Part shown: piece by piece, positions 18,067-63,930 of the stretch | Numbering within the stretch: position 1 is the first letter of the stretch | How the letters are laid out: every line of letters begins with the position of its first letter | Assembly (NCBI GenBank): GCA_008015835.1 | Contig: SSGH01000013.1 | Span: 124,001-188,000 of the forward strand | Origin: Lysobacter sp. | GTDB lineage: Bacteria > Pseudomonadota > Gammaproteobacteria > Xanthomonadales > Xanthomonadaceae | DNA: 64,000 bases | Reading direction: 5' to 3' | The notes under the pieces: generated by a model | What the model was told of the DNA's origin: nothing | Seen by the model: the letters and a program-made list of their open reading frames with translations, nothing else | Databases searched by the model: none | Position numbers and translations under genes: made by a program

Positions 18067-18070
18067 CGGA

Positions 18071-37408: not shown

Positions 37409-37438
37409 GTAACCGCTCCGTGGAGAAAATCGACGCTC

Positions 37439-38857: not shown

Positions 38858-38926
38858 CCTGACGGGATCTCCATGCGGAACCGCCGCGGATCGCCGCGAC
38901 GGCCCGGTGTTCGCGTGAAACGACGG

Positions 38927-40530: not shown

Positions 40531-40670
40531 CTCTTACTCCGACGAATCTATGCTGTGATGGTGAATCGGTCCGATCTCGAATCGGATCGATCGTGGATTG
40601 GTTGCGTGGCGAATCGGTTAAGGCGCGAATGGGGTAAAGGATGGATCGGCTCGATCGCGAAGCGCTGGAT

Positions 40671-41951: not shown

Positions 41952-41962
41952 GCGCGACGACC

Positions 41963-44370: not shown

Positions 44371-44380
44371 AACGGACGAT

Positions 44381-44386
44381 CTCCTT
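44381..44386 (-). promoter_or_regulatory. Ribosome binding site AAGGAG of the LolA-like gene
   Basis: A consensus AAGGAG on the minus strand lies ten bases before the ATG at 44370. It decides the start in favour of the signal-peptide form over the in-frame ATG at 44463. Confidence 0.6.
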
Positions 44387-44459
44387 GAAATGCCCGGCGA
44401 ACGCGACGCGGATAAGATGCTGGATACGACGACGCGTCCGACGCGAGCGATATGCGGAT

Positions 44460-47069: not shown

Positions 47070-47119
47070 TCGCCCTGAATCCTATGAAAACGTGATATGC
47101 CAACGCGACGTTCCGTCGA

Positions 47120-47148
47120 GCGGGACCGCCGCGGCGCGGCGGCCCCGC
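47120..47148. terminator. GC-rich intergenic hairpin after the thioesterase gene
   Basis: Arms 47120-47131 and 47137-47148 pair over 12 positions with one A/C mismatch and a five-base loop. It lies 16 bases past the stop of the thioesterase protein and before the transporter gene. There is no T-run on the minus strand, so it may slow or partly end transcription, or stabilise the upstream mRNA end, rather than act as a strong terminator. Confidence 0.35.
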
Positions 47149-47164
47149 TTCGGTGCTCCGTATG

Positions 47165-50100
47165 TCAGGCGATTCCGGCGGTTTCGCGTTTTGCGCCGGT
47201 CTTCTTGTGCGGCTTGCCGTTACCCGTCAACTTGCGCGCGATCTCGGCAGCGCCATCGGATTCGATGAGGCTGAAGTGATCGGCGTCGAGACTGTGCACG
47301 CGCAATTGCCGGTCGCCGACCAGCGCTTGCCAACCGTAATCGACCGGCGCATCCGGGTATCCGCGCGTCGCGCGGAACAGCGTCACTTCAAGCGCTCCGC
47401 GCATCTTGGGCGGCACGTAATCGACGCAGGCGCGCTCGCTCGCGGCCGCCGCATCGAAGATCGCGACGAACTGTTTCTTCGGCACGTCGAACCCTAGCCG
47501 CACGATGATTCCGTGCAAGTACTCGGCGCGTTCGCGCTCGGGCACCGCCCGCAATTTTTCGGGATCGAGAGCGAGATCGCCGCCGAGCGTCGAGACGAAG
47601 TGCGAGAAGACTTCCGCGACTTCCTGCACCGGATCCTTACCCGGCAGCAAAGGGCTGATGGTGTCCAGAAGCACGAGCGAGGCGCGCTCGCCCAAGTCGT
47701 CCACCAGGGTTCTCGCCATTTCGTAGGCGATGACGCCGCCGTTGGAATAGCCCAGCAGACGATAGGGGCCGCGCGCTTGTACGGTTCGCAGCGCGCGAAG
47801 ATTGAAATCGACGATTTCGCGAACGCTGCCGTGCGCGGCGGACGTTCCGTCCAATCCCACGGCTTCCAAGCAGTAGAACGGTTGCTTATCGCCCAAGGCG
47901 CGACTGAGTTGCTGCAGCGACAACGCGCTGCCGCCGGCGCCGGGCAACGCGAACACGGGCGGCGATCCGCCTTTCGTCTGCAGCGGAACGACGACATCTT
48001 CAGGTGCGACCTCTCGCGGGATCGCGACGACCTCGCCATCGCGCCGCGCCCTCACGGCCTCCGGCGCGGGGGCCGTGCGGGAAACCACCATCTCATCGAG
48101 AAGCTCCGCGAATTGTTCGCCGAGGTGCTCGGACAGCGAACCGATGTCGGGGTTCTTGAACAGTACGCTCGGCGAAAGATTCGTCTCCAACAAAGCGTCG
48201 GTCTTGATGATCAAATCGGCGATGCCCATCGAATCCAAGCCCAGCTCGATGAAATCGCGGTCGAGCGCGACGGCGTCCGCGGTCGCCCCGAGTCGTTTCG
48301 CCGCTTCCTGACGGAGAAACAGCGCGATCTTCTCTGCGGGTCGCAGTCGTTCCGCATCAGCGACGACCGTCTCGGAGTCGCTCGGCAGATAGAAATGCCA
48401 TTGGCCGTCTGCGGTCGACTCCGCATCGAGCGCGGTTTCGACGGGAGTTTTCGCGTCGGCGGCGTCGGCTCGCTTGTCCGACGGCGCGTCGATCTTCGCG
48501 ACCGCGACCGCCCGATCGGCGTCTTCCGAAAATTCGATGTCGACCCAGTAGCGTTCGCGTGCGAAGGGGTACGCGGGCAACGATGCCTTGCGCACGTCCG
48601 CGCCACGCCATAGCGACGCCCACGGCACGACGACGCCGTTCGCCCAGAGCATCGCGATTTGTCTCCAATTGCCGCTTTGCGCGCTCTGAACGAGCTGCGT
48701 CTGCACCATTTCGGGGGTGATCATCGCCGCGACCGAATGCTTGTCCGCGGGGTTGATGCGCGCGTGATGGATATCCCTGGACTCCAGGCCCAGCTTTTCG
48801 CGAATCCCGGTCTTCTCGACCGTCTTGAGCTTTTCCAAAAGCTCTTTCTTCGAAGCGGCCACGATCGCCAGCCGTTCGTTCATCGCTTCGCGCCCGCACT
48901 GCGACGTGAACACGATCTCTTCGAAGGAAGGCGCCGTTTCCTCGTTCGAAAGGAATTCGACGTAACGACGCACGTGCTCCTGCAACCTTTCGGCATTCTT
49001 CGCCGATAGCACGAAGAGCCGTTTCGCCGCGGGCGCGTCCGCCGCCGCTTCGTGCGACGGCAGATATTCTTCGAGCAGGATATGCACATTCGAGCCGCTG
49101 TCGGCGAAGGAATTGACGCCTGCGCGAATCGGTCCACCGGTCTCGTCGCGGATGTCGTCGAAACGCACCTGGCGGTCGGCGATGTAGAGCGTGTGCGACG
49201 GGTTGTCGATATCGATGAAGGTATTGACCTTGTTCTTCGAGATCGTGGCGGGGAACAGACCATGGCGCATCGACAGAGCGATCTTGATGACGTTCGCGAT
49301 GCCGCTGACGGATTCGACGTTGCCGATGTTGCCCTTCAGGCTGCCGAGCGCGACATGCTTGCCGGCGGCGGCGCTTTTCGCGAAGGCGCCCTTCACGCCT
49401 TCGTATTCGAAGGAGTCCGCCCATTTGGTGGCGTATCCGTCGACTTCGATGTAGCGAACGCTCTCCAACGGAACGCCCGCTTTCTGATAGCACTCGCCGA
49501 GAACGCGTGCGATCGACTCGTGCTTGATCTCGGAAATATTGCGCGCCGCGCCCCTGTAGTTCTGATGGCAGGAGCGTATGACCGCATAGATCCGATCGTT
49601 GTCGCGCTCGGCGTCCGACAGACGCTTCAACACGAGAGCGGCGACGCCCTCCCCGCGCGTGAAACCGTTGGCGTCGTCGTCGAAAACGCCGCTGCTGCCG
49701 TCCGGCGAGAGCACGCCGTACTGCGACGAGGCGACGTAGTCGCCCTCGAAAAGATTGAGCGAGACCGCGGCGGTGAGCGCGATGTCGCTTTCGCCGTTCA
49801 GCAGCGAATAGAAAGCGCGGTTGATCGCGACCGCCGAGGAGGCGCAGTTGACGTTGTACGACTCGCTCGGACCGCATAAGTCGAACACATAGGAAATTCG
49901 GCTCGACAGGTAGTACGAAGGACTGGACGAACTGAACAGCGGTCCTTTGGTGAAATCCTGATTGTTCAGACGGCGCAGATACTGTTCGTACTCGGAGTAT
50001 TCGTAACCGACGAACACGCCCGTGCGCGTCCCGGCGAGGGATTTCATGTCGATGCCGGCGTCTTCGACCGCGCGATACGACTCCTGCAGGAGCAGCCGTT

Positions 50101-50929
50101 GCTGCGGGTCCATGTTCGCCGCTTCTTCGGCCGGAATCGAGAAGAATCCGGCGTCGAAACAGTCGACATCGTCGATCAGCGCGCCCCATTTCGAAACGGT
50201 TTTGCCGGGCTGAATCTTATCGGCGTAGTGCCGATCGGCGTCCCAACGCGCCTTCGGTATTTCGCGCATGCTGGCCTTGCCGGCGACCAGATTCGCCCAG
50301 AAGGCATGATGATCGGGAGCGTCCGGCAGCCTGCAACTGATGCCGACGATGGCCACGGCAGGCGCGCGCGCCGCCTGCGGAGCATGCTGGGCGACGGTGA
50401 TGCCGTAATGGCGGAAAAGCGCGTCGGCATGATCCGAGATCAAGGTGTTCACGATTTCGTCGACCGAACCGTAGCCGCGCATCGGCAAGTCGAGCGCGTA
50501 TTTTCCTCGGATGTAGTCGAGAACGTGGCGGTATGGGTCGGCGGGCGGTACCGACGGCGTTGTCGTCGTCGCGAAGAACAACGGCTGGGCCGGCCCCGAG
50601 GGGGCCACCGCGGATTGCGCGAGCGCGGCCGGCGCGGCGGCGACAGCAGGCGCCGCCGGAACGGCTTGCGCCGGTTTGGCCTCTTGGGTGAGATTCTCGA
50701 GCAGCCCCGCCAAGCCGCGTACGGTATCGACGTTGGAGAACTGCGTCGGCGTCAAGGTGACGTCGAACTCTTTCTCGATGTTCTCCATCAACTCCATCAC
50801 GATGAGGGAGTTGATGCCGAAGGTTTCGAAATTCGCGTCGATATCCACCTTGTCGGCGGGAATCTTCAGCGTCTGCTCGATCATTCGAACGACTTCGCCG
50901 AGAATGTCGGCGTCTGCGATTCTGGACAT
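47165..50929 (-). CDS. PKS termination protein: ACP-KS0-ACP-thioesterase
   Basis: This protein has 1254 residues. An ACP at about 5-80 has Ser41 in FGINSL. A KS at about 195-620 has Cys360 in NVNCASSA, but both catalytic His are gone: HGTGT reads VDGYATK near residue 500 and NIGH reads NIGN near 535. Such a KS could accept a chain but should not condense. A second ACP has LGLDSM near Ser897. The C-terminal type I thioesterase has PGAGGSAL, the nucleophile in GYSNGG near 1061, Asp in DTISPL and His in DADHFSLIE. The start at 50929 has GGGGGAG six bases upstream and lies one base after the aminotransferase stop. The first ACP probably completes the KS-DH module at the end of the 3538-residue PKS, with the aminotransferase acting on it. 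The thioesterase then releases the finished chain. Confidence 0.92.
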   Translation of the reverse strand: MSRIADADILGEVVRMIEQTLKIPADKVDIDANFETFGINSLIVMELMENIEKEFDVTLTPTQFSNVDTVRGLAGLLENLTQEAKPAQAVPAAPAVAAAPAALAQSAVAPSGPAQPLFFATTTTPSVPPADPYRHVLDYIRGKYALDLPMRGYGSVDEIVNTLISDHADALFRHYGITVAQHAPQAARAPAVAIVGISCRLPDAPDHHAFWANLVAGKASMREIPKARWDADRHYADKIQPGKTVSKWGALIDDVDCFDAGFFSIPAEEAANMDPQQRLLLQESYRAVEDAGIDMKSLAGTRTGVFVGYEYSEYEQYLRRLNNQDFTKGPLFSSSSPSYYLSSRISYVFDLCGPSESYNVNCASSAVAINRAFYSLLNGESDIALTAAVSLNLFEGDYVASSQYGVLSPDGSSGVFDDDANGFTRGEGVAALVLKRLSDAERDNDRIYAVIRSCHQNYRGAARNISEIKHESIARVLGECYQKAGVPLESVRYIEVDGYATKWADSFEYEGVKGAFAKSAAAGKHVALGSLKGNIGNVESVSGIANVIKIALSMRHGLFPATISKNKVNTFIDIDNPSHTLYIADRQVRFDDIRDETGGPIRAGVNSFADSGSNVHILLEEYLPSHEAAADAPAAKRLFVLSAKNAERLQEHVRRYVEFLSNEETAPSFEEIVFTSQCGREAMNERLAIVAASKKELLEKLKTVEKTGIREKLGLESRDIHHARINPADKHSVAAMITPEMVQTQLVQSAQSGNWRQIAMLWANGVVVPWASLWRGADVRKASLPAYPFARERYWVDIEFSEDADRAVAVAKIDAPSDKRADAADAKTPVETALDAESTADGQWHFYLPSDSETVVADAERLRPAEKIALFLRQEAAKRLGATADAVALDRDFIELGLDSMGIADLIIKTDALLETNLSPSVLFKNPDIGSLSEHLGEQFAELLDEMVVSRTAPAPEAVRARRDGEVVAIPREVAPEDVVVPLQTKGGSPPVFALPGAGGSALSLQQLSRALGDKQPFYCLEAVGLDGTSAAHGSVREIVDFNLRALRTVQARGPYRLLGYSNGGVIAYEMARTLVDDLGERASLVLLDTISPLLPGKDPVQEVAEVFSHFVSTLGGDLALDPEKLRAVPERERAEYLHGIIVRLGFDVPKKQFVAIFDAAAASERACVDYVPPKMRGALEVTLFRATRGYPDAPVDYGWQALVGDRQLRVHSLDADHFSLIESDGAAEIARKLTGNGKPHKKTGAKRETAGIA

Positions 50930-50930
50930 A

Positions 50931-52703
50931 TCAGGCTCCCCCGCCTTTAACGTTGCCGAGATCCGCCATGATCAGCGCCTTAAGTCGCTCGATCGCGGCC
51001 GCGGTATCGGCGACCGGTGCCGCCGCTTTCGCTGCGGTTGGCGCTGCAGGCGCCTCTTTGACCGGCGCGGAGGGCGACGCCGCGACGGCGGCTTCGGGTT
51101 CGGGTTCGACCTCGGGCTCCACGAAGAAGCCCTGCGCCAGCATCGTGTCGATGGTGTTCTTCACGGCGTCGACGATCGCTTTGCAGTCGTCGTCGGAATG
51201 CGTCGTGGTCAAGAAGCAGTTCCCGGAGGTCGAGGTTTCGACCCCGTTGATCTTGAGCAGAATGAAGAATACTTCCCGAGTGAGGCCGAAGGGATCGTCG
51301 ATGACTTGGATGCGGAACAGCGAACTGAAGTACTCGACTACCATCGGGATACGATGCTGCTCGAAATAGGCGTTGATCTCGAGCGAAAGCGCCTCGGTCT
51401 TACGATTGATGTCGCCCAGCGCGCAAGTGCAGGAATGGTAATCGCAGACGCGATCGCCACACATCCGCTTCATCTCTTCGCAGATCGCCAGCGCGGCCGC
51501 TACTTTCAGCGAATTTTGGGTGTGGGTGCCGGCCATCATCGTGCGTTTGAGGCTAGGCATCGATGCGTCGTCGAAGCGCCAAGTGCCGCCGTCGACGTAA
51601 TCCATGTATTTGGCCAGTCCGCCGATCACGCCGGTGGGCATACCTCCGCCCGCGACCTTGCCGTAGGTGGCGATATCGGGCTTGACGCCATAGAAGGTCT
51701 GAACGCCCTTCGGGCCGGCGCGAAAACCCGTGATCATTTCGTCGAAGATCAGAACGATGTCCTTCTCCAGCGTCAAACGGCGCAGTTCGCGAACGAACTC
51801 CTTCGGCTGACGCGACGGGAAACGCGACTGGATCGGCTCGACCAGCACGCAAGCGATTTCGTCCGCGCGCTTTTCGATGGTTTCGATCTGGTCCATGTTG
51901 CCGTAGTCGAGAATGATCAACTGGTCGGCGAACTCCTGCAGCATGCCCAGGCCAGCCGAGATGCTTCCGCCCTTGCGGTCGCGGAACGCCAACACCGCGT
52001 CGGAGAGCCCATGATACGAGCCGTCGAACGTCACGATCTTCTTGCGACCGGTCGCGGCGCGCGCGATGCGAACCGCCCACATCAGCGATTCGGTACCGGA
52101 TTGCGCGAACACCATGCGCTCATGGCCGGTCAATTCGCAGAACATCTTCGCGGCTTGGAACAAGTCCTCGCTGTACGCCACCAGCGGATAGCCGCGATTC
52201 ATCCGATCGATGAGCGCTTTTTTCATGAATTCAGGCTGATGCCCGAACAGATTCACGCCGTTGTCGCCCGCCACATCGATGTAGCGATTTCCGTCCACGT
52301 CCCAGATGTACGGGCCGTCGGCACGGTCGTAGGTCAGTTGGAACTGCAGCGATTTCAACGGCCGCTTCAAGCCGGCCGTCTTGCGCTGATCGACGAAATA
52401 CGCTTGATGCTTCAGCGCGTTGTCTTTCGATTTCGGGACGCGTTTCTCGTACTTTTCGGTCAGATCGGCGATGTAGGCGATGTGCGATTCGCCCATGTTC
52501 AGCTCGTGCAACGATTTCAGCGTCGGCTTCGCCGACGCTCCGTCGCCTCCGACATCGTTTCCTGCCGGCAGTCGGGAACGCAGACCGGCGACGACTTCGA
52601 GCTTTTGCTCGTCGTCCAGCTCCGCGAAATGGCGCAGCGCTTCCTGTCTGTCGAACTTTTTCGTCAGGATGCTTTCGAGTACGTCTTCGACTGAAGTTGC
52701 CAT
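50931..52703 (-). CDS. Free-standing PKS-associated aminotransferase (PLP, class III)
   Basis: This protein has 590 residues. Residues about 1-45 (MATSVEDVLESILTKKFDRQ) are helical and resemble PKS docking or linker ends. Residues about 70-510 are a glutamate-1-semialdehyde-aminotransferase-like fold with FAQSGTESLMWAVR, FDEMITGFRAGPKGVQ and the PLP lysine in YGKVAGGGMP. A Pro/Ala/Glu-rich linker and a C-terminal helix (AAAIERLKALI) follow. Such enzymes inside PKS modules replace a beta-keto group with an amine on the ACP-bound chain. The gene sits exactly between a protein ending KS-DH and one starting with an ACP, so it likely supplies a separate amination step in that split module. The ATG at 52703 is set by AAGGA (52712-52716), which overlaps the upstream stop. 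The longer frame to 53162 is shadow sequence inside the PKS gene. Confidence 0.9.
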   Translation of the reverse strand: MATSVEDVLESILTKKFDRQEALRHFAELDDEQKLEVVAGLRSRLPAGNDVGGDGASAKPTLKSLHELNMGESHIAYIADLTEKYEKRVPKSKDNALKHQAYFVDQRKTAGLKRPLKSLQFQLTYDRADGPYIWDVDGNRYIDVAGDNGVNLFGHQPEFMKKALIDRMNRGYPLVAYSEDLFQAAKMFCELTGHERMVFAQSGTESLMWAVRIARAATGRKKIVTFDGSYHGLSDAVLAFRDRKGGSISAGLGMLQEFADQLIILDYGNMDQIETIEKRADEIACVLVEPIQSRFPSRQPKEFVRELRRLTLEKDIVLIFDEMITGFRAGPKGVQTFYGVKPDIATYGKVAGGGMPTGVIGGLAKYMDYVDGGTWRFDDASMPSLKRTMMAGTHTQNSLKVAAALAICEEMKRMCGDRVCDYHSCTCALGDINRKTEALSLEINAYFEQHRIPMVVEYFSSLFRIQVIDDPFGLTREVFFILLKINGVETSTSGNCFLTTTHSDDDCKAIVDAVKNTIDTMLAQGFFVEPEVEPEPEAAVAASPSAPVKEAPAAPTAAKAAAPVADTAAAIERLKALIMADLGNVKGGGA

Positions 52704-52711
52704 CGCTTTTT

Positions 52712-52716
52712 TCCTT
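52712..52716 (-). promoter_or_regulatory. Ribosome binding site AAGGA of the aminotransferase, overlapping the upstream stop
   Basis: AAGGA lies eight bases before the ATG at 52703 and shares bases with the TAA stop of the PKS gene. It sets the true aminotransferase start and implies coupled translation. Confidence 0.6.
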
Positions 52717-55700
52717 AAAGAATATTTTCCAAAAGCTTCTCGAACGCGTCGTCCGGCGCGGACTCGCGCGTCGTCGCATCGTGTGGCGCCGCGGTCGTCG
52801 TTCCGGCGCTCGCGGGGACGGCGGCGTAAGCCGATTCGAGCAGGCGCGCGAACTCGGTCGCGGCATCCGCCGCAAGAGCCGTTCGCGGGCGGTTCGCGCG
52901 CAAGCCCAGGCCTTTGAATCGGACGCAAACCGCGCCCTCTTCGTCGATGAGATCGATGTCCAATCGGACTACCGGATCGTCGATCCTGCCGCCTCGGGCA
53001 TAACGCACCCAGGCATACGCGTTGTGCGGGACGGGCGCGAAGATCTGCAGCGCATCCAGCGCCGACGGCGTCGTGATCTGCGCCGAATCCGGCGCGAAAC
53101 CCGCCACCAACGCGGACGCTATTTGCAGCGCCGCATCCAGACGCGCCGGCGGTAGCGCGCAAGCAGCCTCGTCCGTCGGACTCGCGCGCAATCGCGCGAG
53201 CGATTGATCCTCGGTGCTGTATACCTCATCGACCAGTCGGAGCGATGGGCCCCGCGCCGGTCGCAATCCGTCGAGCGCCGCGTCGAGCAGGCTGGGCTTC
53301 AGAGGTTTAGCGCCGAAGACGGCTTTCATCTGTCGCAGGTCGAGTCGCGAGGGCGGCGCGATATCGGCGAAGACCACGCTGCCGCTGCAGATGCTCTCGC
53401 CGTCTGCCGCGCGAATATCGAATTCGGTGGCCGTTCCGCCTTCGCGCACGGAAATCGCGATCGCGTGACCGCTACCGATCGCGCTCGCCGACGCATTCCA
53501 CCGGACTGCGCGCAGTTCCGCGCCGCTGCGCGCGTCCGCGCCGAACCGCGCCAACGCGGCAGCGGCACGCCCCATTTCCAAGCACGCCGAGTCGGGCAGC
53601 GTGCCCGCATGATCGAGCAACCACAATTCCGACCCCGCGAAACGCGTCGCGAACGTTTGCCGACCGAGCGTCGAAGTGTTGGTATGCACCAGCGGATGCA
53701 ATACGGCCGTCGCCGCTTGCGCTTTTTTGGCGGTGCCGGTATCGATCCAGTGGCGATCCCGCGCGAAAGGATAGGTCGGCAAATGGATACGGCGAGGACG
53801 GAACCCCGACGCATCGGCGTCGTACAACCGCCGCCAATCGATGTCCGCGCCGTCGGTCCAGGCGGCGAGCAATTCGAGGTAATCCCGCGCCGAAAGCCAG
53901 CGTTCGATGTCGGCCCCGCGCGCATCCGCGCCGCCTTCGGCGACGCTCAACCCCTGATCGTTGCGTTTGTAGCGCTGCACGCGTCCGCGACGGATCGGAT
54001 GCGTCGCGCTCGCGCCGGACAGATGGGCTTCGATCGCCGAGATCAAGGCTTCGCGCGAATCGACCAAGATGCCCAAGCGTTCTTCCATCGGGTCGCGCCC
54101 GACTTGCAGCGTGAAGGCAAGATCGGCCAATTCGAGCGCTTCGTGCTTTCGCGCATACTCGAGCAAGGCCGCGGCATAGGCGTTGAGGCGGTCCTCGTTC
54201 TTCGCGGACAGCAGCACTAAGCGCGGCGCCGTCTCGGGATGCGGACGCGCGGGCGGCCGATACTCCTCCACCACGACGTGCGCGTTCGCACCGCCCCAGC
54301 CGAACGAGCTGATACCCGCGCGGCGCGGCAATTCGCGCCCGTCCGCCGCTTTCGGCGCCGGCCACTCGACGGTCTTATCGACGATGAAGAACGGGCTGCC
54401 TTCCAGATCGATGTAGGGGTTCAGCGTTTCGAAATGCAGCAGCGCCGGAATCTGGCGATGGCGAATCGACATCAGCACTTTGAGCAGACTCGCCATGCCG
54501 GCGGCGGGCTCCAGATGGCCGATGTTGGTCTTCACCGAGCTCAGTCCGCAGTGCGGGCGGCTCGGCGCCGGTAGGCCGTGACGGCGATAGAGATCGGAGA
54601 ACGATTTCTTGAGCGCTTGGATTTCGATGGGATCGCCCAAGCTAGTGCCGGTGCCGTGGCATTCGATGTAGCCGACGGTCGAAGGATCGACGCCGCCCTT
54701 CTCGTAGGCCTCGAACAGCAATTCGGCCTGCGCTTTCGGGTTGGGCGCGGTGAGCATGGTGACTCGACCGCCGTGATTTTCGGCGGTGGCGCGGATCACG
54801 GCATAGACGGGATTGCCGTCCGCCTCGGCCTGCGCCAAGGGTTTGATCAGAATCGCCCCGACGCCCTCGCCTCGAACGTAGCCGTTGGCGTCCTTGTCGA
54901 AGGTCTTACACTTTCCGTCCGGGCTGAGCATGCCCGCCGAACTCAGCGAGATATGCGCGATCGGCGTCAGCATCACCTGCACGCCGCCGACGATCGCCAT
55001 ATCGCTACTGCCGGTATGGATCGATTCGATCGCGCGGTGCAAGGCGACGAGCGAGCTGGAACAGGCGGTGTCCAACGGAGCGCTCGGGCCGCGAAGATTG
55101 AACAGGAAGGAGATGCGGTTGGCCAGAATCGAGTGCGAGTTGCCCGAGGCGGAGAAGCCGTCGAGCGTCGATTGGTTTTCGGCCAGTACGTCGATGTAAT
55201 CCTTCGCGGAGACGCCGACGAACACGCCGGTCTTCGTGCCCGACAGATCCGACATGCGGTGACCGGCGTCCTCGACCGCGCTCCATACGGTCTCGATGAA
55301 GATGCGCTGCTGCGGATCCATCATCTCCGCTTCGCGCGGCGTGATTCCGAAGAACAGCGGGTCGAATTTATCGACCTCCTTCATGAAGCCGCCCCACTTG
55401 GAGTAGGACTTGTTGGCTTCCTTCACCGGATTGCCGTGGAATTCTTCCCAGATCCAGCGATCGCGCGGAATATCGGTGACGAGGTTGCGCGCATCGCGCA
55501 AATTCTCCCAAAACTCCTCGATATCGCTCGACTGCGGCATGACGCCGGCGACGCCGACGATGGCGATCGGCACGTCGAGGAAGCGACGGTCCCGCGAAAA
55601 ATCGCCGCCCGGCCCGATCGAGGACGCCGTGGTCGCGGGCGCGACCGCCGCCATCGCGTTCCAACCTTTATCGATGCCGGTCGCGATCTCGATCGGTTTC

Positions 55701-58700
55701 GCCGACGACGCGACGGGCGCCGTCGCGGGCGACGCTTGCGCTGCGGCTACGGCGACCGCGCCGACGCCGGCTTCAACGCCGCTATGCGCATTGCGCACGG
55801 CGGCGCCGTGCTCGGTGGCGAGCACGCCGGCGATCGCTCGGATCGAGGGGTATTCGAAGAACATCACCGGATTGATGTCCAGACCGTAGCGGTCGTTGAT
55901 CGCGTTGGCGAATCCGGCGAGACCGATCGAATCGAAGCCCAGATCGAGCAGGATGTTGTCGATCGACAGTTCGTCCTGGCCGAGTTTGAGCATCTCCATC
56001 ACCAGATCGGACAGCACGCCGATCACCGCCGTTTCCAGATCGCCGCCCGCCGCCGCGGGCGCGGGTGCGGTGGCGACCGTGCCGGGCGCGGACGTCGTCG
56101 GCGCCGGCGCTTTCTTGACCAAGCCCCATGCCGACTCGATCTTCGCCGGCTGCCCCTGCAGCACCGCCAGATGCGCGCGGTCGCTGGCCAGACCGGAGAC
56201 CAACGCGGTCAAGCCGACGTCGGTTTCGAGCGGTTTGATGCCGAGGTTCTTGCGGAAGAACTGTTCGGTCTGCTCGTCCAGGCGCATCCCGCCTTCGGCC
56301 CAGAGCGACCAATTGAGGCTGAGCGTGCGGCCGCGACGCGTCCCGGCGGCGCGTTGCGCTTCGCGGGCTTCCGCGAACGAGTCCATGAAATGGTTGGCGA
56401 ACGCGTAGTCGCACTGCCCGGCGTTGCCGCCGATGGCGGCGAGCGACGAGAACAGCACGAAGAAATCCAGATCGTCGTCGCGCGTCTGCGCATCCAGATG
56501 CAGCGTGCCGAATATCTTGGGCGCGAACACATCGTGCAGATCGCTCGCGGTCTTTTTGCGCAGATAGGAATCGCGCAGCACGCCCGCGGCGTGGACGATG
56601 CCGTTGATGCGGCCGAACCGCGCGCGCGCTTGCGCGAGCACGTCGGCCACGCCTTCGGCGGTCGACGCGTCTGCGGCGACGTAAAGGACTTCGGCGCCAT
56701 GGGCGCGCATCGCGTCCAGTCTCGCCTCGCGATCCGCGGAGAGCGCCGAGCGCCCGGTCAGCACCAGCTTCGCTTTGTACTCCCGAGCGAGATGATCCGC
56801 GAAGATCAGGCCGAGACCGCCCGCGCCGCCGGTGATCAGATACACGCCTTCGTGCTTGAGCGAAACGCCCGGCGCATCGCTGGGCAGCGCGGTCGCATCG
56901 AGCCTCTGCAGGGTGCGCACCATGCGTTCGCCGCGCTCGTAGCGGACGGTGATCTCGTCCTGCGCGTCGGGGCCGAGTTCCGCGATCAGAGCCGCGGCCG
57001 AGGCATCGGCGGATTGGCCGCGCAGTTCGACGGCCTTCGCGTCGATCTTCGGATGCTCCAGGCGCAGACTGCGCACGAAGCCGTTGATCGCATCGTGCTG
57101 CGGCGCGTACGCGCCCGGTTCGCCTGCGTAAACGTAGGCGAGACGAACGCGTTCGGACGGTTTGCGGTCGAGCAACGCTTGGCTGAGCCGCAGCAGGCCG
57201 TAAACGCCGCGCTCCAGCGCCGCCTGCAACGCCTCGGGTTCGTCGATGGCGACGGCGTCGTTCCACGCGTAGGCGATGGCGTCGGGCATGCGCCCGCTCG
57301 CGGCCAAGGCTTCGAAGAGTTTGGCGAAATCCTCGGACGACGACGGGTCGAGACGGAACCCTCGCTCGCCGAGGTCTTCGAACGCATCGCCGGGGCGCGC
57401 CAGCGTCACCGCGACGCCGCGAGCGCGCAATGCCGCCGCTAGGTCCTCGCGCGAATCCAGCAGCAGCATGCGCGACACGCCGCTCGCGACCGCCGGCGCG
57501 GAACGCCAGACATGGGAATAGCGAAGATCGACGAATTCCTCGGCCTGCGTCGGAGCGACGGACGTCGGCTGCGTCGGCTTCTCGTGGACCTGGGTCAACG
57601 GAACGCCTACGGACTCGCGGATTCGGGCCAATACCCGGCCGGATTCGTCGACGATCGCGACGTTCTCGCGCGACACGCCGCTCGCGGCGCGTTCGCTCTT
57701 CATCGGCGTGATGTGGCTGTAGCACACTTTGGTCAGCGGATGCAGGAACTCGACCTCGCCGATCGAATACGGCACCTTCATCTCGCCCGCAGCGTCGCCG
57801 AGTTGGCCGACCACGCCCGCCTGCATCGAGGCGTCCATCAAACACGGGTGCAGCACGAAGGCGTCGAAATCGGCGTTACGCGCGTCCGGCAAGCGCAGCA
57901 GGCCGAGCACTTCGTCCTGGTTCTTGAAGACTTCCTGCAGCACTTGGAAGCTCGGGCCGTACGCCATCCCGACCGACTTGAAGAGCGGGTAAGCGTCTCG
58001 CCCGTCGACGACTTTCGCGCAGCGGGCGCGAATCGCGGCCAGATCGATATATTCGGCGGGAGGCGCGGCGGCATCGGGCGCGTCGTAGATCAATTTGCCC
58101 TGCGCGAACACCCGGCGGCGTCCGTCTTGGCCATCGGCGAACACCTCGAAAGCGACCGCGTCGGCGGCGGGTTTCAATTCGATGATCGCATCGGTCGGCG
58201 CCGCGTCTTCGGCGGTCAGCGGGCTGATCCACGTGATGTTGCGCAGCTTGCGGACTTTGCGTCCGGCGGCGGCTTCGCCGGCCACGCGCGCCATCTCCAA
58301 ATAGGCGGTGCCCGGCAGCGTCGGCACGTTCGAGACCACGTGGTCGCGCAGGAAGAATTCCTGGGCGCGGAAGCGTTTGCGGAACAACTGGCGCTGGAAC
58401 GTGGATTCGTTGCTGTCGATCAGCGGATGCATGCCTGCGCGCAGGGCCGGCGTCGAGGACGACGCGCCGACGCGGGGGCTGCCGATCCAATGACGTTTAT
58501 CGGCGAAGGGATACGTCGGCAACGACGCGCGACGCGCGGGAACCCGCAGCATGCCGCGGCAATCGGAGAGCAAGCCGTCCAGCCACAATTGCGCCAGCTT
58601 GTGCGGTTCGCGGCTCTGCGACAACAGCGCGACGAACTGTTCCTTCTCGGCGCGGCTGAGCAGTCGCGTGATGCCGTCGGCGTTGCGAACGTTGCCGGTC

Positions 58701-61700
58701 AGCACATCGTCGTGACGACGCCCTTCGATGAAGCACGAGAGCTTTTCGATCAAATCGTGGCGGCCGTCGGCGACGATCGCGACCCGGCAATCGAACGACT
58801 TGCGCCCGCTCTGTAGGGTGAAGGCGATATCGCACAGCGATTGCTGCGCGCCCTCGCCCTCCAGATGACGACGCAGACGCTTCGCGACGTCGCGGAGTTG
58901 ATCGTCGTTGCGCGCGGACAGCGGGAACACCGTACCTCCGCGAGGCAGCGCCTCCGCGGAGGCCGGCAACGAGGCCTCTTCGATCACCACGTGCGCGTTC
59001 GCGCCGCCGGCGCCGAACGAACTGATGCCCGCGCGCAAAGGCATGCGCACCCCGTTCGTTTCGAATGCGCGCCAAGGCTCCAGGCGTTGCTGCACGCGGA
59101 ACGGCGTCGATTCGAAGTCGATATGCGGATTCGATCGCGCCGAGTGCAGCGAGGGCACCAGTTCGCGGTGGCGCATCTGCAGCGCCGCCTTGCAAACGCC
59201 GACGAGACCGGCGGCCGCTTCGAGATGGCCGATATTGGTTTTGACCGAACCGATGGCGCAATGGCCGTTGGGAACGTTCGAGTGCTCGAACGCCGCGCAG
59301 AGCCCGGAAATTTCGACCGGATCGCCGAGTTCGGTGCCCGTGCCGTGCGCCTCGATATAGCCGATGCTGCGCGCATCCACGCCGGCGCGCGCCAATGCGG
59401 CGCTCACCAATTCGCCCTGCGCCTTCGGATTGGGAACCGTGTAGCCGCTGGTGCGTCCGCCATGGTTCGAGGTCGCGCTGCGGATCACCGCGTAGACGTG
59501 ATCGTGATCCGCGATCGCCTGCGACAAGGGCTTGACGAAAATCGCGCCGACGCCTTCGCCGGCGACATAGCCGTTCGCGTCCGCGCCGAAACTGCGGCAG
59601 ACGCCGTCTGGCGACAGCGCCCCGCCCGCCCAGTTGATATCGAATTTGGTTTGATGCAGATCGAGATTGACCCCGCCGACGATGGCGCTGCTGCAGTCCC
59701 CGCGACGGATCGCTTCGCAGGCGAGGTAAAGCGCGGTAAGACTGGAAGAACAGGCGGTATCGACGGTCAGACTGGGGCCGGTCAGGTTCATCCAGAACGA
59801 CACGCGATTCGCCACGCTCCAGAGGAACGAGTTCGGGCTGACGTTCCGCCCGGCCAGTTTTTCCTCGACGCCAAGGATCTGATACATCGCCCAGACCGCG
59901 CCGACGAAGACGCCGACTTGTCGGGGTGCGCCTTCGGGCGCCAAGTTCTCCGGGTAATAACCCGCGTCCTCCAGCGCCTCCCACGCCACTTCGAGGAACA
60001 ACCGCTCTTGCGGATCCAGAATCTCGGCCTCGCGCGGCGAGATGTTGAAGAACAACGAGTCGAAACGGTCGACCGCGTCGATGAAACCGCCGCGGTAATC
60101 CATGGTGTATTCGTTGCGCGCGCGCTGGGCCATGCGCTCTTCGGGCAGCGGCCCGACGCAATCGCGACCATCGCGCAAATTCCGCCAGAATTCGCGCAAA
60201 TCCGCGGCTTTCGGGTAGCGCCCGGCCATACCGACGATGGCGATCTCGATCGGCGCATCCGCGGCGAAGCCGCCGCCGGCATGCGCGGCGTGCGCGTTCT
60301 GCGACACAGAAGGCATGGTGTCTCCCGCGTAAGCGGTGGGGGGCTCGCTCTCGGAAGGTGCGCTCTCGGAAGGCGACGCAGCGAGGTCGATGAGGGCGGT
60401 GGTCGCGCCGGCATCCCGATGCGCAGAGGGCGAGCGCCAGCCCTGCAGCGCGTAGCGAAGACGCGTCTCGCCTTCGCTCTCGGCTTCGACCATCGCCCGT
60501 ACGAGGTCCGGAATATCGCGAGGCGCAGCGAGCATGCGCGCCATGCGCGCGGCGATCTCATCGATCGCCTCGGGCTTCAAACCGACCGGCACCGCGATGC
60601 GGACCAGATCGTTGATCGTCGTGCCTCGCTGCATGCCGACGCTGTGCGCCCCGGCGCGAATGCCGGTGCTGCGATACAGCCACGCGAGGAACGAGGCGAC
60701 CGGATTCGACAACCCTTGCAATGCGGCGATGCGCCCGACCTCGATCAGCACGCAATGCGCGCCCGGAGGGCCGTAGACCGGCAGGCCGGCGTTCTTGAGC
60801 GCGCGCCAGAGGGCCGAGGCGGCCTCCATGCGACGGACCACCTGGCTCTCGATGCGGCCGCGATCCTGCAGCGCCAAAGCCAGCAGTTTGCGGTCGATCG
60901 CATCCAAACCGCTTCCGTCCTGCTGCTGCAGGCGCGACAGTTCCCGCGCGAGGCGCTCGTCGTTGGTGGCGACGATGCCGCCGCGATCGACGCAGAAATC
61001 CTTCGCCAGACTGCCGATCGCGGCATCCGCCTGCGCCAGCACATCGCGCGCCACGTCCCACAACGACCTGCCTGCGCACTCGGGATCGCGCTGGATCAGC
61101 GCGCGCGCGTTTTCGAGAATTCGAGTCGCGTCGACGACCAACGCCACATCGTGGGCGCGGAGAAATTCGCGCAAGCCGCGCAGCCGAGCCAGCGACACGG
61201 GATGGCCGCCGGCGGCGTTGTCGCACACTTCGATGCAGACGTAGGCGATCTCGCCGGCGCGCTCGGCGACCAACGCCCGCAGGCGCTCCCAATCCGGTTC
61301 GCCGCGATCGTCGGGCTCCGTCTGCGACGCGAACAGCGACGGATGCGGCAGTTCGAGCGGTTCGAAGCCTTTGTCGATCTGATGGTAAAGACAGCTCGGG
61401 AACAGCAAATTCTGCGGCACCAATCCTTTCTTCGGCCAAGCGCGACAGAACAGGTGGTCGGCGGCGCGGCCCGATTCGGCGATGGCGAAATGGCGGAACG
61501 GGAAGATCGCGCGCAGGCTGTCGGTCAGATCCGCCGGCTGTTGCAATTGCGTGCGCAGGCGCTGCATGCGCTGCGCCACGTACGGCGTGCGCAACTGCGC
61601 CCACGAGTCGGTCTTGAGATCGTATTCGACATCCTCGTCCGCGAGCGCCAGGGGGTCGTAGCCGGCCTCGGCGAGCGAGGCCTCTCGGGCGCGTTCTTCC

Positions 61701-63331
61701 GGCGTCGAGGCGCCGAGGGGAACGACTTGCGCCATGATCGGACCCGGCGTCGATGCCGGCGCGCCGACGGACGCGAGAACCGCGGCCGCATTGTGATGTT
61801 CGATATCGGGCGTCTGCCGGTTCGGGTCGGCGATCATCATGATCAGATCGACCACATTGTCGGCGCTCGCGTCTTCGACCGGACGGCACAGATAAATCGT
61901 GCGGTTCTCCGGCCGGAATTTATTCTTGAACTGGAGATTGCCTTCGTCGTTGAAAATGCCCTGCCGATGCAGATCGTCCAGCACCCGATCGACGTTCGGG
62001 TCAGGATTGGACGAGCCGGTCAGGCGCACGCCGTAGGTGCCGCCCAGGCTGAGCATGTCGCAGCCTTCGGCGGCGAGGGTTTCGATGATGCGGACGATCG
62101 CGTATTCCAATCCGCCCAGCGGCATTTCGCGCGGGTAGAACTCCAAATCCATCAGGTAGCCGTTCAATTCCGGCCCCATCTTGGAGATCAGAATGACGTT
62201 TTGCAGAACATCGTCGAGATACGTCAGAAACACACGATGCTGCGGATGCAGAGACCCGGCCAGAATCTCCTCGCGCACGATTCCGATCAGCGGATTGACC
62301 ATCGGCTTGGTCTCGCACCACCGGTCGATCACATCGACGATGTCGCGATCGGTTCGCGCATCCGCGCCGCGAGCGTATTCGACGGTGCGGCAGGCGCCGG
62401 CCTTCTCGAATTTGCCGACTTGATAGCGCAGGCGCCGCATCGCGCCGCCTTCCAGGCTGAATTCGCGCAGGGCGTGAACCCGCTGCAGGGCGCCGAACGC
62501 GGTGGCGGAGAACGCGCAGCCCGCGACCGCGCCGATCTCCACATCGGTGAAGAGATTGAGCCGCAATCCATGCGCACGGCAATGGGCCAAAGTCTCGGCC
62601 GCCAACTCGTCGAAATAATCGGCCGGCCCGGTGTAGGCGTAAATCAGCATCGCGTCGCCGCTGCGGCCGTAATTGAAGTAGCCGCGACGCGCGCCGCCGA
62701 CGAAGAGATTCGGCGCGATGATGCGCGTCCCGCGCGAAACGCAGCCCTCGTTGCTGTAGCGCGCGTACAGGGCTTCGAGCTGCGACCGCAATTCCGGATA
62801 GTGCGGCAGATCCGCTTCGAGCAAGCGCAGCGGCGACGCGACGCTCGCCGATGACGCCGGCGGTTGCGTGACCGTCCGCATCGGGGGGACGAGCGGGGAA
62901 GATTTTTCCGCGCGCGCTGGCGCGGAAGTGGCGACCGCAGAGGACGGCGACCGCTTCGGCGCGGCCGTCTGCGCGTGCGCAGGCGCGGAGGCCGATGACG
63001 ACGCGGATACCCGAGCGACCGTCTTTGGCGCCTCGGCTGCTTCGTCGACCGACGGCGAGCCGAACTTGGCCGTCAACGTCGCAGAATGCTTCCGCACGAA
63101 ATAGCGCGCGAGCGATTCGACGTTGAAATTCTCGAACAGCAGCGTTTTCGGCAAGGTGCCGAAATCGGCTTCCAAATCCTTGATGATCTTCAGCACGCGA
63201 AACGAATCGACGCCCAATTCGCCGAACGGCAGCGACGCATCGAAATCGGCGGCGAGCCCATTGGAGGCGCCAGCGATCATCGCCTTCAGATAAGACTCGG
63301 TCTGGTCCTGCAATCGTTCCTGATCGTGCAT
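52715..63331 (-). CDS. Trans-AT PKS, 3538 aa: ACP-DUF2156-PLP lyase-KS-DH-KR-ACP-KS-DH0
   Basis: The start ATG at 63331 follows AGGGA by four bases; the in-frame ATG at 63451 adds only basic low-complexity residues. The domains are ACP (Ser42, LGVDSF), a DUF2156/GNAT-like domain about 174-484, a tryptophanase/tyrosine phenol-lyase-like PLP domain about 547-944, KS 1027-1447 (Cys1193, HGTGT, NIGH) and DH 1632-1917. That DH has Asn for Gly in HxxxG (HVVSNVPTLP) but an intact MDASMQ. Next come KR 1930-2400 (TGGAGGLG), ACP Ser2467 and KS 2585-3027 (Cys2755). A damaged DH (3207-3484) has the first motif shortened to HAGTLP. The last module has no ACP; the aminotransferase and the ACP of the next two genes complete it. 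No AT is present. The leading ACP may finish a module whose KS is on another protein, or may act as a loading ACP. Confidence 0.93.
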   Translation of the reverse strand: MHDQERLQDQTESYLKAMIAGASNGLAADFDASLPFGELGVDSFRVLKIIKDLEADFGTLPKTLLFENFNVESLARYFVRKHSATLTAKFGSPSVDEAAEAPKTVARVSASSSASAPAHAQTAAPKRSPSSAVATSAPARAEKSSPLVPPMRTVTQPPASSASVASPLRLLEADLPHYPELRSQLEALYARYSNEGCVSRGTRIIAPNLFVGGARRGYFNYGRSGDAMLIYAYTGPADYFDELAAETLAHCRAHGLRLNLFTDVEIGAVAGCAFSATAFGALQRVHALREFSLEGGAMRRLRYQVGKFEKAGACRTVEYARGADARTDRDIVDVIDRWCETKPMVNPLIGIVREEILAGSLHPQHRVFLTYLDDVLQNVILISKMGPELNGYLMDLEFYPREMPLGGLEYAIVRIIETLAAEGCDMLSLGGTYGVRLTGSSNPDPNVDRVLDDLHRQGIFNDEGNLQFKNKFRPENRTIYLCRPVEDASADNVVDLIMMIADPNRQTPDIEHHNAAAVLASVGAPASTPGPIMAQVVPLGASTPEERAREASLAEAGYDPLALADEDVEYDLKTDSWAQLRTPYVAQRMQRLRTQLQQPADLTDSLRAIFPFRHFAIAESGRAADHLFCRAWPKKGLVPQNLLFPSCLYHQIDKGFEPLELPHPSLFASQTEPDDRGEPDWERLRALVAERAGEIAYVCIEVCDNAAGGHPVSLARLRGLREFLRAHDVALVVDATRILENARALIQRDPECAGRSLWDVARDVLAQADAAIGSLAKDFCVDRGGIVATNDERLARELSRLQQQDGSGLDAIDRKLLALALQDRGRIESQVVRRMEAASALWRALKNAGLPVYGPPGAHCVLIEVGRIAALQGLSNPVASFLAWLYRSTGIRAGAHSVGMQRGTTINDLVRIAVPVGLKPEAIDEIAARMARMLAAPRDIPDLVRAMVEAESEGETRLRYALQGWRSPSAHRDAGATTALIDLAASPSESAPSESEPPTAYAGDTMPSVSQNAHAAHAGGGFAADAPIEIAIVGMAGRYPKAADLREFWRNLRDGRDCVGPLPEERMAQRARNEYTMDYRGGFIDAVDRFDSLFFNISPREAEILDPQERLFLEVAWEALEDAGYYPENLAPEGAPRQVGVFVGAVWAMYQILGVEEKLAGRNVSPNSFLWSVANRVSFWMNLTGPSLTVDTACSSSLTALYLACEAIRRGDCSSAIVGGVNLDLHQTKFDINWAGGALSPDGVCRSFGADANGYVAGEGVGAIFVKPLSQAIADHDHVYAVIRSATSNHGGRTSGYTVPNPKAQGELVSAALARAGVDARSIGYIEAHGTGTELGDPVEISGLCAAFEHSNVPNGHCAIGSVKTNIGHLEAAAGLVGVCKAALQMRHRELVPSLHSARSNPHIDFESTPFRVQQRLEPWRAFETNGVRMPLRAGISSFGAGGANAHVVIEEASLPASAEALPRGGTVFPLSARNDDQLRDVAKRLRRHLEGEGAQQSLCDIAFTLQSGRKSFDCRVAIVADGRHDLIEKLSCFIEGRRHDDVLTGNVRNADGITRLLSRAEKEQFVALLSQSREPHKLAQLWLDGLLSDCRGMLRVPARRASLPTYPFADKRHWIGSPRVGASSSTPALRAGMHPLIDSNESTFQRQLFRKRFRAQEFFLRDHVVSNVPTLPGTAYLEMARVAGEAAAGRKVRKLRNITWISPLTAEDAAPTDAIIELKPAADAVAFEVFADGQDGRRRVFAQGKLIYDAPDAAAPPAEYIDLAAIRARCAKVVDGRDAYPLFKSVGMAYGPSFQVLQEVFKNQDEVLGLLRLPDARNADFDAFVLHPCLMDASMQAGVVGQLGDAAGEMKVPYSIGEVEFLHPLTKVCYSHITPMKSERAASGVSRENVAIVDESGRVLARIRESVGVPLTQVHEKPTQPTSVAPTQAEEFVDLRYSHVWRSAPAVASGVSRMLLLDSREDLAAALRARGVAVTLARPGDAFEDLGERGFRLDPSSSEDFAKLFEALAASGRMPDAIAYAWNDAVAIDEPEALQAALERGVYGLLRLSQALLDRKPSERVRLAYVYAGEPGAYAPQHDAINGFVRSLRLEHPKIDAKAVELRGQSADASAAALIAELGPDAQDEITVRYERGERMVRTLQRLDATALPSDAPGVSLKHEGVYLITGGAGGLGLIFADHLAREYKAKLVLTGRSALSADREARLDAMRAHGAEVLYVAADASTAEGVADVLAQARARFGRINGIVHAAGVLRDSYLRKKTASDLHDVFAPKIFGTLHLDAQTRDDDLDFFVLFSSLAAIGGNAGQCDYAFANHFMDSFAEAREAQRAAGTRRGRTLSLNWSLWAEGGMRLDEQTEQFFRKNLGIKPLETDVGLTALVSGLASDRAHLAVLQGQPAKIESAWGLVKKAPAPTTSAPGTVATAPAPAAAGGDLETAVIGVLSDLVMEMLKLGQDELSIDNILLDLGFDSIGLAGFANAINDRYGLDINPVMFFEYPSIRAIAGVLATEHGAAVRNAHSGVEAGVGAVAVAAAQASPATAPVASSAKPIEIATGIDKGWNAMAAVAPATTASSIGPGGDFSRDRRFLDVPIAIVGVAGVMPQSSDIEEFWENLRDARNLVTDIPRDRWIWEEFHGNPVKEANKSYSKWGGFMKEVDKFDPLFFGITPREAEMMDPQQRIFIETVWSAVEDAGHRMSDLSGTKTGVFVGVSAKDYIDVLAENQSTLDGFSASGNSHSILANRISFLFNLRGPSAPLDTACSSSLVALHRAIESIHTGSSDMAIVGGVQVMLTPIAHISLSSAGMLSPDGKCKTFDKDANGYVRGEGVGAILIKPLAQAEADGNPVYAVIRATAENHGGRVTMLTAPNPKAQAELLFEAYEKGGVDPSTVGYIECHGTGTSLGDPIEIQALKKSFSDLYRRHGLPAPSRPHCGLSSVKTNIGHLEPAAGMASLLKVLMSIRHRQIPALLHFETLNPYIDLEGSPFFIVDKTVEWPAPKAADGRELPRRAGISSFGWGGANAHVVVEEYRPPARPHPETAPRLVLLSAKNEDRLNAYAAALLEYARKHEALELADLAFTLQVGRDPMEERLGILVDSREALISAIEAHLSGASATHPIRRGRVQRYKRNDQGLSVAEGGADARGADIERWLSARDYLELLAAWTDGADIDWRRLYDADASGFRPRRIHLPTYPFARDRHWIDTGTAKKAQAATAVLHPLVHTNTSTLGRQTFATRFAGSELWLLDHAGTLPDSACLEMGRAAAALARFGADARSGAELRAVRWNASASAIGSGHAIAISVREGGTATEFDIRAADGESICSGSVVFADIAPPSRLDLRQMKAVFGAKPLKPSLLDAALDGLRPARGPSLRLVDEVYSTEDQSLARLRASPTDEAACALPPARLDAALQIASALVAGFAPDSAQITTPSALDALQIFAPVPHNAYAWVRYARGGRIDDPVVRLDIDLIDEEGAVCVRFKGLGLRANRPRTALAADAATEFARLLESAYAAVPASAGTTTAAPHDATTRESAPDDAFEKLLENIL
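60490..61700 (-). other. Tryptophanase/tyrosine phenol-lyase-like PLP domain inside the PKS
   Basis: This is a domain-level entry at residues about 547-944 of the 3538-residue PKS. The fold-type I landmarks of beta-eliminating lyases occur in order: AEAGYDPLALADEDVEYDL and TDS near the start, SGR for the phosphate site, NAAGGHPVSLARLRGLREF, DATRILENA (PLP ring Asp and substrate Arg), the lysine in GSLAKDFC and GG shortly after. The length of about 400 residues is near that of free enzymes (about 460). I infer PLP-dependent beta-elimination, perhaps C-S cleavage. Confidence 0.75.
61880..62810 (-). other. DUF2156 (GNAT-fold acyltransferase-like) domain in the PKS
   Basis: This is a domain-level entry at residues about 174-484 of the 3538-residue PKS. 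The pattern LNGYLMDLEFYPREMPLGGLEYAIVRI shows the layout (split here for brevity: DLEFYPRE then AIVRIIETLAAEG), then LSLGGTYGVR and FKNKFRPE with a C-terminal IYLCRP. This matches the second half of DUF2156/LPG-synthase-type GNAT domains. It lies between the N-terminal ACP and the PLP lyase domain. Confidence 0.55.
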
Positions 63332-63930
63332 GGTATCCCTGCGCATTCCTGACTTCGATGTCGCTCTTCCTGCTTCGCCGCTTTTCGGTTCGCGGCGTCG
63401 AAGCTTCCGATGCCGTTTGACGCTGCACCACGTGCGCTTCCGTCGCGCCACCGCCCGCTCTATTCGGCGCGAAGGCCGCGCCCTCCGCTCTTTCGATCCG
63501 ATGAAACCGAGGGCGCCGATGAGATCGATCTCATCGATTCCAACAACAGACAGCTACCAGCCAACCGCGCGCGCAACCTCGAAGACGATCGCGGACACGC
63601 CGCCGCGATTCCAGGATGTCGTTCGATTCTCGACACGCATGCGCGACAACGTCGAGCGTCATCCGCACCGGACGCGACTCGGCGCGCGCGACGAATGAAC
63701 CACCAAGGGGTTTCGCGAGGTTGGCGCGAAAATCCGGCAGAAAATTCTGTAAAAGCGTGCGGATTCGGCGCGAAACGATTCGATGCGTTCGATCCATGAA
63801 TCGCGGACCGATGCCAATCGCGTTAGGAAGTGCCTCCATGCGTCGGAGGCGAATTTCGGGAAAGGCTCCGCCCTGTCATGTCGCAATCCTGCGCATCACT
63901 CGTCCATTCTCGATCGACTCTACGATTGGC
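63332..63930. other. Intergenic region upstream of the PKS operon
   Basis: This is about 600 bases with no gene I can support. The operon promoter on the minus strand is expected here, but I see no convincing -35/-10 pair. A short inverted repeat (CAGAA/TTCTG around AA) lies at 63738-63749 and could be an operator, though it may be chance. Small overlapping reading frames have no recognisable product. Confidence 0.4.
63336..63340 (-). promoter_or_regulatory. Ribosome binding site AGGGA of the first PKS gene
   Basis: AGGGA on the minus strand lies four bases before the ATG at 63331. It selects MHDQERLQDQ as the N-terminus over the ATG 120 bases upstream. Confidence 0.5.

Follow-up and report, generated by a model that had tools for sequence, protein, structure and literature searches.

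A DUF-SH didomain, probably a sulfur-insertion cassette, inside a trans-AT polyketide synthase of Lysobacter sp.

Polyketide synthases (PKSs) of the leinamycin type have a final module of the order KS-ACP-ACP-DUF-SH-TE with an HMGS beta-branch (PMC7618002). In the published proposal, the DUF adds thiocysteine to the chain by conjugate addition and the SH domain, which uses pyridoxal phosphate (PLP), cleaves the C–S bond; where these papers treat the DUF, its way of working is given as a proposal only (PMC7618002, PMC8479088). Besides LnmJ-SH, the domains GnmT-SH and WsmR-SH have been reported, and 109 DUF-SH gene clusters and three families beyond leinamycin have been counted (PMC8479088). The three assayed SH domains, all from Streptomyces, prefer the thiocysteine over the cysteine adduct by 50- to 106-fold (PMC8479088).

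A related arrangement was catalogued and modelled in 2013 by Milano et al., who listed CP-DUF2156-PLP3-KS-KR-CP-KS in Kordia algicida (A9ECY5) and CP-DUF2156-PLP3-KS-KR-CP-KS-KR in Lysobacter sp. ATCC 53042 (F8TUA6); the passages that describe these proteins mention neither a split-module partner nor the gene neighbourhood (PMC3870968). The same catalogue contains a tyrosine phenol-lyase (TPL)-type domain in a PKS of Burkholderia gladioli (F2LI38), in an entry that does not list DUF2156 (PMC3870968); the lyase fold may serve another purpose there. In the open-licence PMC literature, PMC3870968 was the only paper found with ‘DUF2156’ and ‘polyketide’, no title found with ‘thiocysteine lyase’ dealt with a Gram-negative cluster, and no product of such a cluster was named; PMC11260071 touches on the subject in its reference list only. 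LnmJ, the one precedent for a PKS-embedded PLP lyase named in the original prediction for the locus described here, is not the sole one.

Here we describe a member of this family in a 64,000-nucleotide stretch of a Lysobacter sp. contig (the window). PKS protein D is encoded at 52715..63451 on the minus strand, as are all genes of the window given below, and has the order ACP-DUF-SH-KS-DH-KR-ACP-KS-DH, the last DH being degenerate, according to its open reading frame (ORF) and Pfam matches. The frame gives 3,578 amino acids from a GTG start and 3,538, the length first reported, from an ATG at residue 41. We consider it probable, from sequence comparison and analogy, that its ACP-DUF-SH part is a sulfur-insertion cassette of a trans-AT PKS, in which thiocysteine would be added and a persulfide left mid-chain. 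The CP-DUF2156-PLP-KS arrangement was already in print in 2013, and the PKS of the window adds to the known DUF-SH family; what our analysis contributes is the split module, the separate small ACP, the fold, motif and acidic stretch of the DUF, and a cluster shared across phyla. It would place a well-defined, likely sulfur-inserting assembly line from a Lysobacter-like host beside three assayed members from Streptomyces (PMC8479088).

The SH domain (thiocysteine/cysteine lyase-like) spans residues 585–1000 (60452..61699) and matches Pfam Beta_elim_lyase (PF01212) with 76 bits, where the cut-off is 27, at E = 4e-21. The ordered landmarks of beta-eliminating lyases were correctly located at the outset: AGYDP (61652–61666), NAAGGHPVS (61193–61219), DATRILENA (61106–61132) and LAKDFC (60992–61009), which contains the PLP lysine K817 (61001–61003). 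NCBIfam models for tryptophanase (PRK13238, E = 2.1e-44) and TPL (E = 7.5e-35) also match, both under the model cut-offs; at the equivalog level the domain scores 120.7 against 720.7 for TIGR02618 and 78.9 against 825.8 for TIGR02617. In a PDB sequence search, 9cen_A came first (E = 1.4e-64), followed by tyrosine phenol-lyases (3.2e-37) and tryptophanases (6.6e-30); the title of 9CEN is ‘Structure of the thiocysteine lyase (SH) domain from guangnanmycin A biosynthetic pathway’. An AlphaFold2 model built from a 33-row alignment (mean pLDDT 93.1) gave the same order in Foldseek, with 9cen_B and 9cen_A at ranks 1 and 2 (TM 0.86, 35–36% identity), then TPL and tryptophanase, and no unrelated aminotransferase fold as the best match. 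At the level of sequence and predicted fold, these results confirm a TPL-like PLP domain rather than a chance resemblance, and bear out the original prediction of a PLP beta-eliminating lyase, similar to LnmJ-SH, embedded in a trans-AT PKS.

By the same comparisons, the domain is homologous to the SH domains of LnmJ and GnmT over its full length, and closer to them than to TPL. It shares with the leinamycin family (LnmJ-SH, GnmT-SH, WsmR-SH; 9CEN) the ACP-DUF-SH order, the fold and the PLP and carboxylate residues, at 35–43% identity. TPL and tryptophanase share the fold and the PLP site at 18–26% identity in the Foldseek alignments listed, but differ at the positions of Tyr71 and Arg381, and the SH domain, unlike them, is embedded in a PKS. 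Lyase activity with a preference for thiocysteine is most likely, as predicted by homology.

Conservation at the active site is nearly complete. K817, D774 and R777 (DATR) and N745 (NAAGG) are shared by all 81 sequences (the window and 80 relatives), and R951 (LVR) is present in 80, the remaining one having a gap. At two positions that matter in TPL, Tyr71 and Arg381 (PMC3870968), the alignment, with residue numbers counted by hand, pairs Tyr71 with Arg and Arg381 with His, and this His is invariant across the 33 alignment rows. Such changes could mark a lyase-like relic, or a domain turned to another PLP reaction such as beta-replacement or C–N chemistry, and Milano et al. also describe a loss of Arg381 by deletion in domains embedded in PKSs and, in their model, an Arg in place of the Tyr (PMC3870968). 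We hold this to be very improbable, given that their deletions include the active leinamycin domain (PMC3870968) and that the catalytic residues do not vary across several phyla.

The nature of the sulfur donor is a finer point, as thiocysteine and cysteine are indistinguishable from sequence. The original proposal for LnmJ was the same cassette with plain cysteine added by the DUF and a thiol (-SH) left by the SH domain, and LnmJ-SH does split cysteine adducts in vitro, inefficiently (PMC8479088). Against this stands the 50- to 106-fold advantage of the thiocysteine adduct in all three tested domains (PMC8479088), evidence that reaches the window through an SH domain 35–36% identical to the solved one. 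We therefore judge the cysteine route unlikely for the window. The idea of sulfur insertion in a Gram-negative host is probably right as first proposed, but a persulfide is a better prediction than the thiol given there, because the three assayed SH domains prefer the thiocysteine adduct (PMC8479088).

Between the ACP (63092..63316; residues 46–120) and the SH domain lies a region of double GNAT fold (61847..62821; residues 211–535) that matches LPG_synthase_C/DUF2156 (Pfam PF09924, E = 4.2e-17). The ACP before and the KS after the SH domain had been recognized from the start, but the ‘GNAT-like domain’ listed with them is not a distinct domain. It is the DUF of DUF-SH, because it matches the aligned ACP-DUF-SH of a leinamycin-type PKS: in Streptomyces xanthii, a PKS beside an LnmK-family gene has LPG_synthase_C directly before Beta_elim_lyase, and its ACP-DUF-SH is 39% identical to that of the window over 928 columns. 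The locus accordingly departs from DUF-SH-TE in having a KS instead of a TE, as originally predicted, whereas its ACP-DUF-SH order is that of the leinamycin type.

An AlphaFold2 model of the DUF (37 rows, pLDDT 94.5) retrieved A-PGS (4v35, E = 3.8e-18), MprF, FemX and the aminoacyl-tRNA-dependent peptide synthases Sbb17/Sba18 in Foldseek, and a profile search with the DUF returned LpiA, MprF and A-PGS. The DUF has the double GNAT fold, common to the C-terminal domain of A-PGS/MprF and to FemX, and the catalytic-Lys motif of aminoacyl-tRNA-dependent GNAT-fold transferases; with A-PGS/MprF it also has in common an Asp and an FK-x-KF motif. We take residues 765, 768 and 840 of A-PGS to be the positions aligned to the Asp, Phe and Lys of the DUF. 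There, the DUF keeps the Asp (Asp435) and the Lys in 81 of 81 sequences, and Arg has become Phe in 81 of 81. Residues of A-PGS were also sought in PMC11980842, which gives none. The motif N505-x-x-F508-K509 is kept in all 81 DUFs and has the spacing of the key residues of DhpH-C, Asn325, Phe328 and Lys329 (PMC12945691).

These features, from the A-PGS-, MprF-, FemX- and Sbb17/Sba18-like fold to the invariant motif and Asp435, would also suit a true aminoacyl-tRNA-dependent transferase that brings (thio)cysteine from tRNA before the SH domain acts. This alternative concerns the donor only and overlaps with our main explanation, such that the probabilities given to the two are not exclusive; we regard it as quite unlikely. 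Residues 474–504, just before the motif, are acidic in the DUFs (mean net charge −4.2, range −7 to +1, n = 81) and basic in the four MprF controls (+3 to +4), counted as sequence charge only; the description of FemX suggests that a helix within this stretch would be the tRNA-binding one. The second GNAT lobe has a mean net charge of −7.8 in the DUFs against 0 to +8 in the MprF controls (L114, L115, L116 and L118; L117, L119 and L121 were left out, the motif search having given no sequence for them). In the controls, the Arg that is Phe in all 81 DUFs lies three residues past the kept Asp, and Leu takes the place of the motif Asn in all four. A tRNA ester would, moreover, need hydrolysis to yield the free carboxylate that the SH domain requires. 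The DUF is probably a former aminoacyl-tRNA transferase that has likely lost the use of tRNA and would now attach thiocysteine to the chain. A more specific version, that the Lys pocket itself has become a C–S bond former and places (thio)cysteine, possibly from Cys-tRNA, on an ACP-bound acyl group, is speculative and unlikely; if true, DUF-SH would be a portable kit, able to function with a stand-alone ACP as well.

The module that would feed the DUF-SH appears to be divided between two proteins. PKS protein A (4,714 amino acids) enters the window with its N-terminal part (DH-KR, 1..2510) and runs beyond it to contig base 112366, where it ends in KS-DH with neither KR nor ACP after. Because protein A ends in KS-DH and protein D opens with ACP-DUF-SH, a split module KS-DH // ACP-DUF-SH that lacks a KR is very likely, with the end of protein A as its probable upstream half; the pairing is judged from the matching ends. 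A match to the KS-DH end was found in all 15 distinct genomes searched (16 genome handles, of which G010 and G059 give identical places). The protein A-like frames end 2–24 residues past the matched DH in 15 of 15 fetched stretches, at 31–48% identity; the KS lies partly outside most of these stretches and wholly outside in L142. The two weakest matches, in G002 and Kordia (31–32%), do not surpass other KS-DH stretches of the same genomes, and the A–D pairing there consequently rests on the shared end.

Relatives show the module in other states of assembly. A Marinicella protein is fused as DH-ACP-DUF-SH (L073), and a KR is present in cis in KS-DH-KR-ACP-DUF-SH (L070, L072 and L085), in variants of this with two ACPs (L071) or two DH hits (L087), and in KR-ACP-DUF-SH (L090 and L098). 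The DUF follows an ACP in 73 of 80 relatives; in 5 the ACP has an ORF of its own, and in 2 (L083 and L088) the frame is cut at this point. All five relatives whose uncut frame opens in the DUF (L051, L057, L058, L062 and L065) have a small ACP-like ORF just upstream. Such natural three-piece versions, with a KS-DH protein, a free ACP and a DUF-SH protein, are suited to testing C–S bond formation by the DUF.

Two other readings of the module were set aside. The KS upstream of the DUF-SH ACP was considered as a non-elongating KS of a dehydrating bimodule after a scan for the NIGH motif missed it; alignment gives NLGH there, and this KS should elongate because its Cys-His-His motifs are intact. 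Beta-branching signalled by a Trp flag at the DUF-SH ACP was likewise rejected: the flag, at the exact position that we presume for it in ACPs, is absent there and sits on the tandem ACPs of proteins B and C. The cluster nevertheless has an HMGS gene, and the acceptors of leinamycin-type modules are HMGS beta-branched while the module-8 ACPs of leinamycin also lack the flag (PMC7618002); its absence may still be compatible with HMGS chemistry at this ACP.

For the thiocysteine-adding cassette, we propose that the last KS of protein A would extend the chain and its last DH process it, with the missing KR possibly supplied in trans, and that the chain would then be carried by the ACP at the start of protein D. 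An enoyl acceptor would need such a trans-acting KR, or the acceptor differs, because the module has none; the FabG-like SDR at 36671..37408 is a candidate. The DUF would bind the ACP-tethered unsaturated acyl group and add L-thiocysteine to the beta carbon. The SH domain, as a fold-type-I PLP beta-lyase, would bind the amino-acid end of the adduct as an external aldimine, take the alpha proton and expel the polyketide persulfide (-SSH), freeing pyruvate and ammonia. The following KS (58892..60196), whose Cys-His-His motifs are intact, would accept the sulfur-bearing chain onward.

In contrast to the leinamycin-type final module, the DUF-SH module of the window has a single ACP, is probably split after KS-DH and is followed by a KS, and sulfur would enter mid-chain and not at release. 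The non-leinamycin DUF-SH PKSs, compared by their text descriptions, have one ACP and no TE in the DUF-SH module, like protein D (PMC8479088, PMC7618002). A9ECY5 and F8TUA6 have the N-terminal domain order and Gram-negative hosts in common with it; F8TUA6 ends in KS-KR whereas protein D ends in KS-DH, and the domain order of protein D recurs at a locus of K. algicida OT-1 (L052).

A scan of genome contigs with a 10-row alignment found 121 relatives, and the best 80 of the 121 were kept. The sample leans to the type of the window and to DUF-bearing loci, because the DUF supplied the scan patterns and the genus of the window contributed 8 of the 10 alignment rows. Within it, hidden Markov models place the DUF directly before the SH domain in 80 of 80, and the next domain is a KS in 54, a TE in 22, an ACP in 2 and nothing in 2 (L059 and L098). 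The KS after the SH domain, which had been presented as a departure from the DUF-SH-TE order, is common, at least in a sample of this bias. Going by the record titles, Lysobacteraceae, Burkholderiales, Bacteroidota, Acidobacteriota and Actinomycetota are among the hosts.

In a quick tree of 80 of the 81 rows (L059 was left out for length, and many rows were flagged for odd composition), the window groups with two Lysobacteraceae rows (98*) within a 10-row set of Lysobacterales, Oxalobacteraceae, Burkholderiaceae and Chromobacterium (97*). Twenty actinobacterial rows fall into a separate 22-row set (100*), and 16 Bacteroidota rows form one side of a branch (99*); the DUF-SH of the window lies outside the set of actinobacterial TE-type (leinamycin-type) cassettes. 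The SH domain occurs in 7 of 10 other genomes of the genus, in frames of 1,941–4,546 amino acids (the shortest on a 22-kb contig), and in none of 24 genomes from other genera of the family; at the order level, 4 of 24 genomes have only 29–32% matches, in frames of 463–591 amino acids. One candidate, L110 (G062, Lysobacter enzymogenes), was discarded as a DUF-SH locus, as the region has a weak aminotransferase match only. The viral contigs scanned yielded no relative. A plasmid search gave 79 records; among the 20 matches listed, the two examined are both leinamycin-type clusters, and the others fall in PKS genes, in annotated tryptophanase/tyrosine phenol-lyase genes or in places unannotated at the match. 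One genome of the genus (G005) has two DUF-SH PKS loci, on contigs C7 and C32. Long-branched or fused DUF-SH PKSs in Spirochaetales (L090), Marinicella (L073 and L083) and Deltaproteobacteria (L085) are perhaps informative on movement of the cassette.

Downstream of protein D lies a class III aminotransferase (GSA-like) gene (50931..53162; PF00202, E = 8.8e-42), whose ORF opens inside the PKS gene and whose true start is probably just past the PKS stop. Of 18 relatives searched, 8 have a strong match to it (48–59%, E below 1e-180), which crosses one stop codon in two of the eight (G063 and G076). Next come PKS protein F (47165..50929; ACP-KS-ACP-TE), whose KS lacks both catalytic His residues, export-type genes for a LolA-like/DUF1329 protein and an MMPL transporter (43441..47069), and, at 38927..43537, genes for a GMC/DAO-type FAD oxidoreductase, a DUF1302 protein, a START-like protein (Pfam START at 20.4 bits, where 22 is the cut-off and thus narrowly missed) and a further protein that has no Pfam match, which matches the same relatives’ genes as the START-like protein.

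We compared five aminotransferase-bearing relatives over stretches of 20–40 kb, outside which an unseen gene may lie. The aminotransferase, protein F and MMPL genes occur in 5 of 5, those for the LolA-like protein, the FAD oxidoreductase and the START-like protein in 4 of 5 (in Kordia the stretch breaks off within MMPL), the DUF1302 gene in 3, and a close homologue of the SDR and a ligase in 2 each. From the aminotransferase to the START-like gene, the company found at 36671–50929 is common to DUF-SH PKS loci of Lysobacteraceae and Bacteroidota, which, with its aminotransferase and MMPL/LolA-type genes, points to a family of sulfur-bearing polyketides. The set resembles what we take to be aryl-polyene-type export sets, and its product may be envelope-bound.

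The remaining PKS genes encode protein B (2605..18093; 5,162 amino acids), with ECH, MT and Trp-flag tandem ACPs for beta-branching, and protein C (18071..36337; 6,088 amino acids), with ECH and Trp-flag tandem ACPs. Past protein A lie the HMGS gene and a single-domain KS, presumably of the decarboxylase type; an acyltransferase gene lies past protein D. Two strong PF01053 genes in the genome of the window could include a cystathionine lyase that makes thiocysteine, although the family is present in all 14 control genomes too. Protein C has three near-identical Trp-flag ACPs near residues 4487, 4612 and 4741, and a further ACP pair near 3296 and 3408 that is identical over the 55 residues compared, perhaps through recent duplication. 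Outside the window, on contig C18 of the same genome (194817–199670), a 1,617-amino-acid frame with eCIS_core lies near the PKS cluster.
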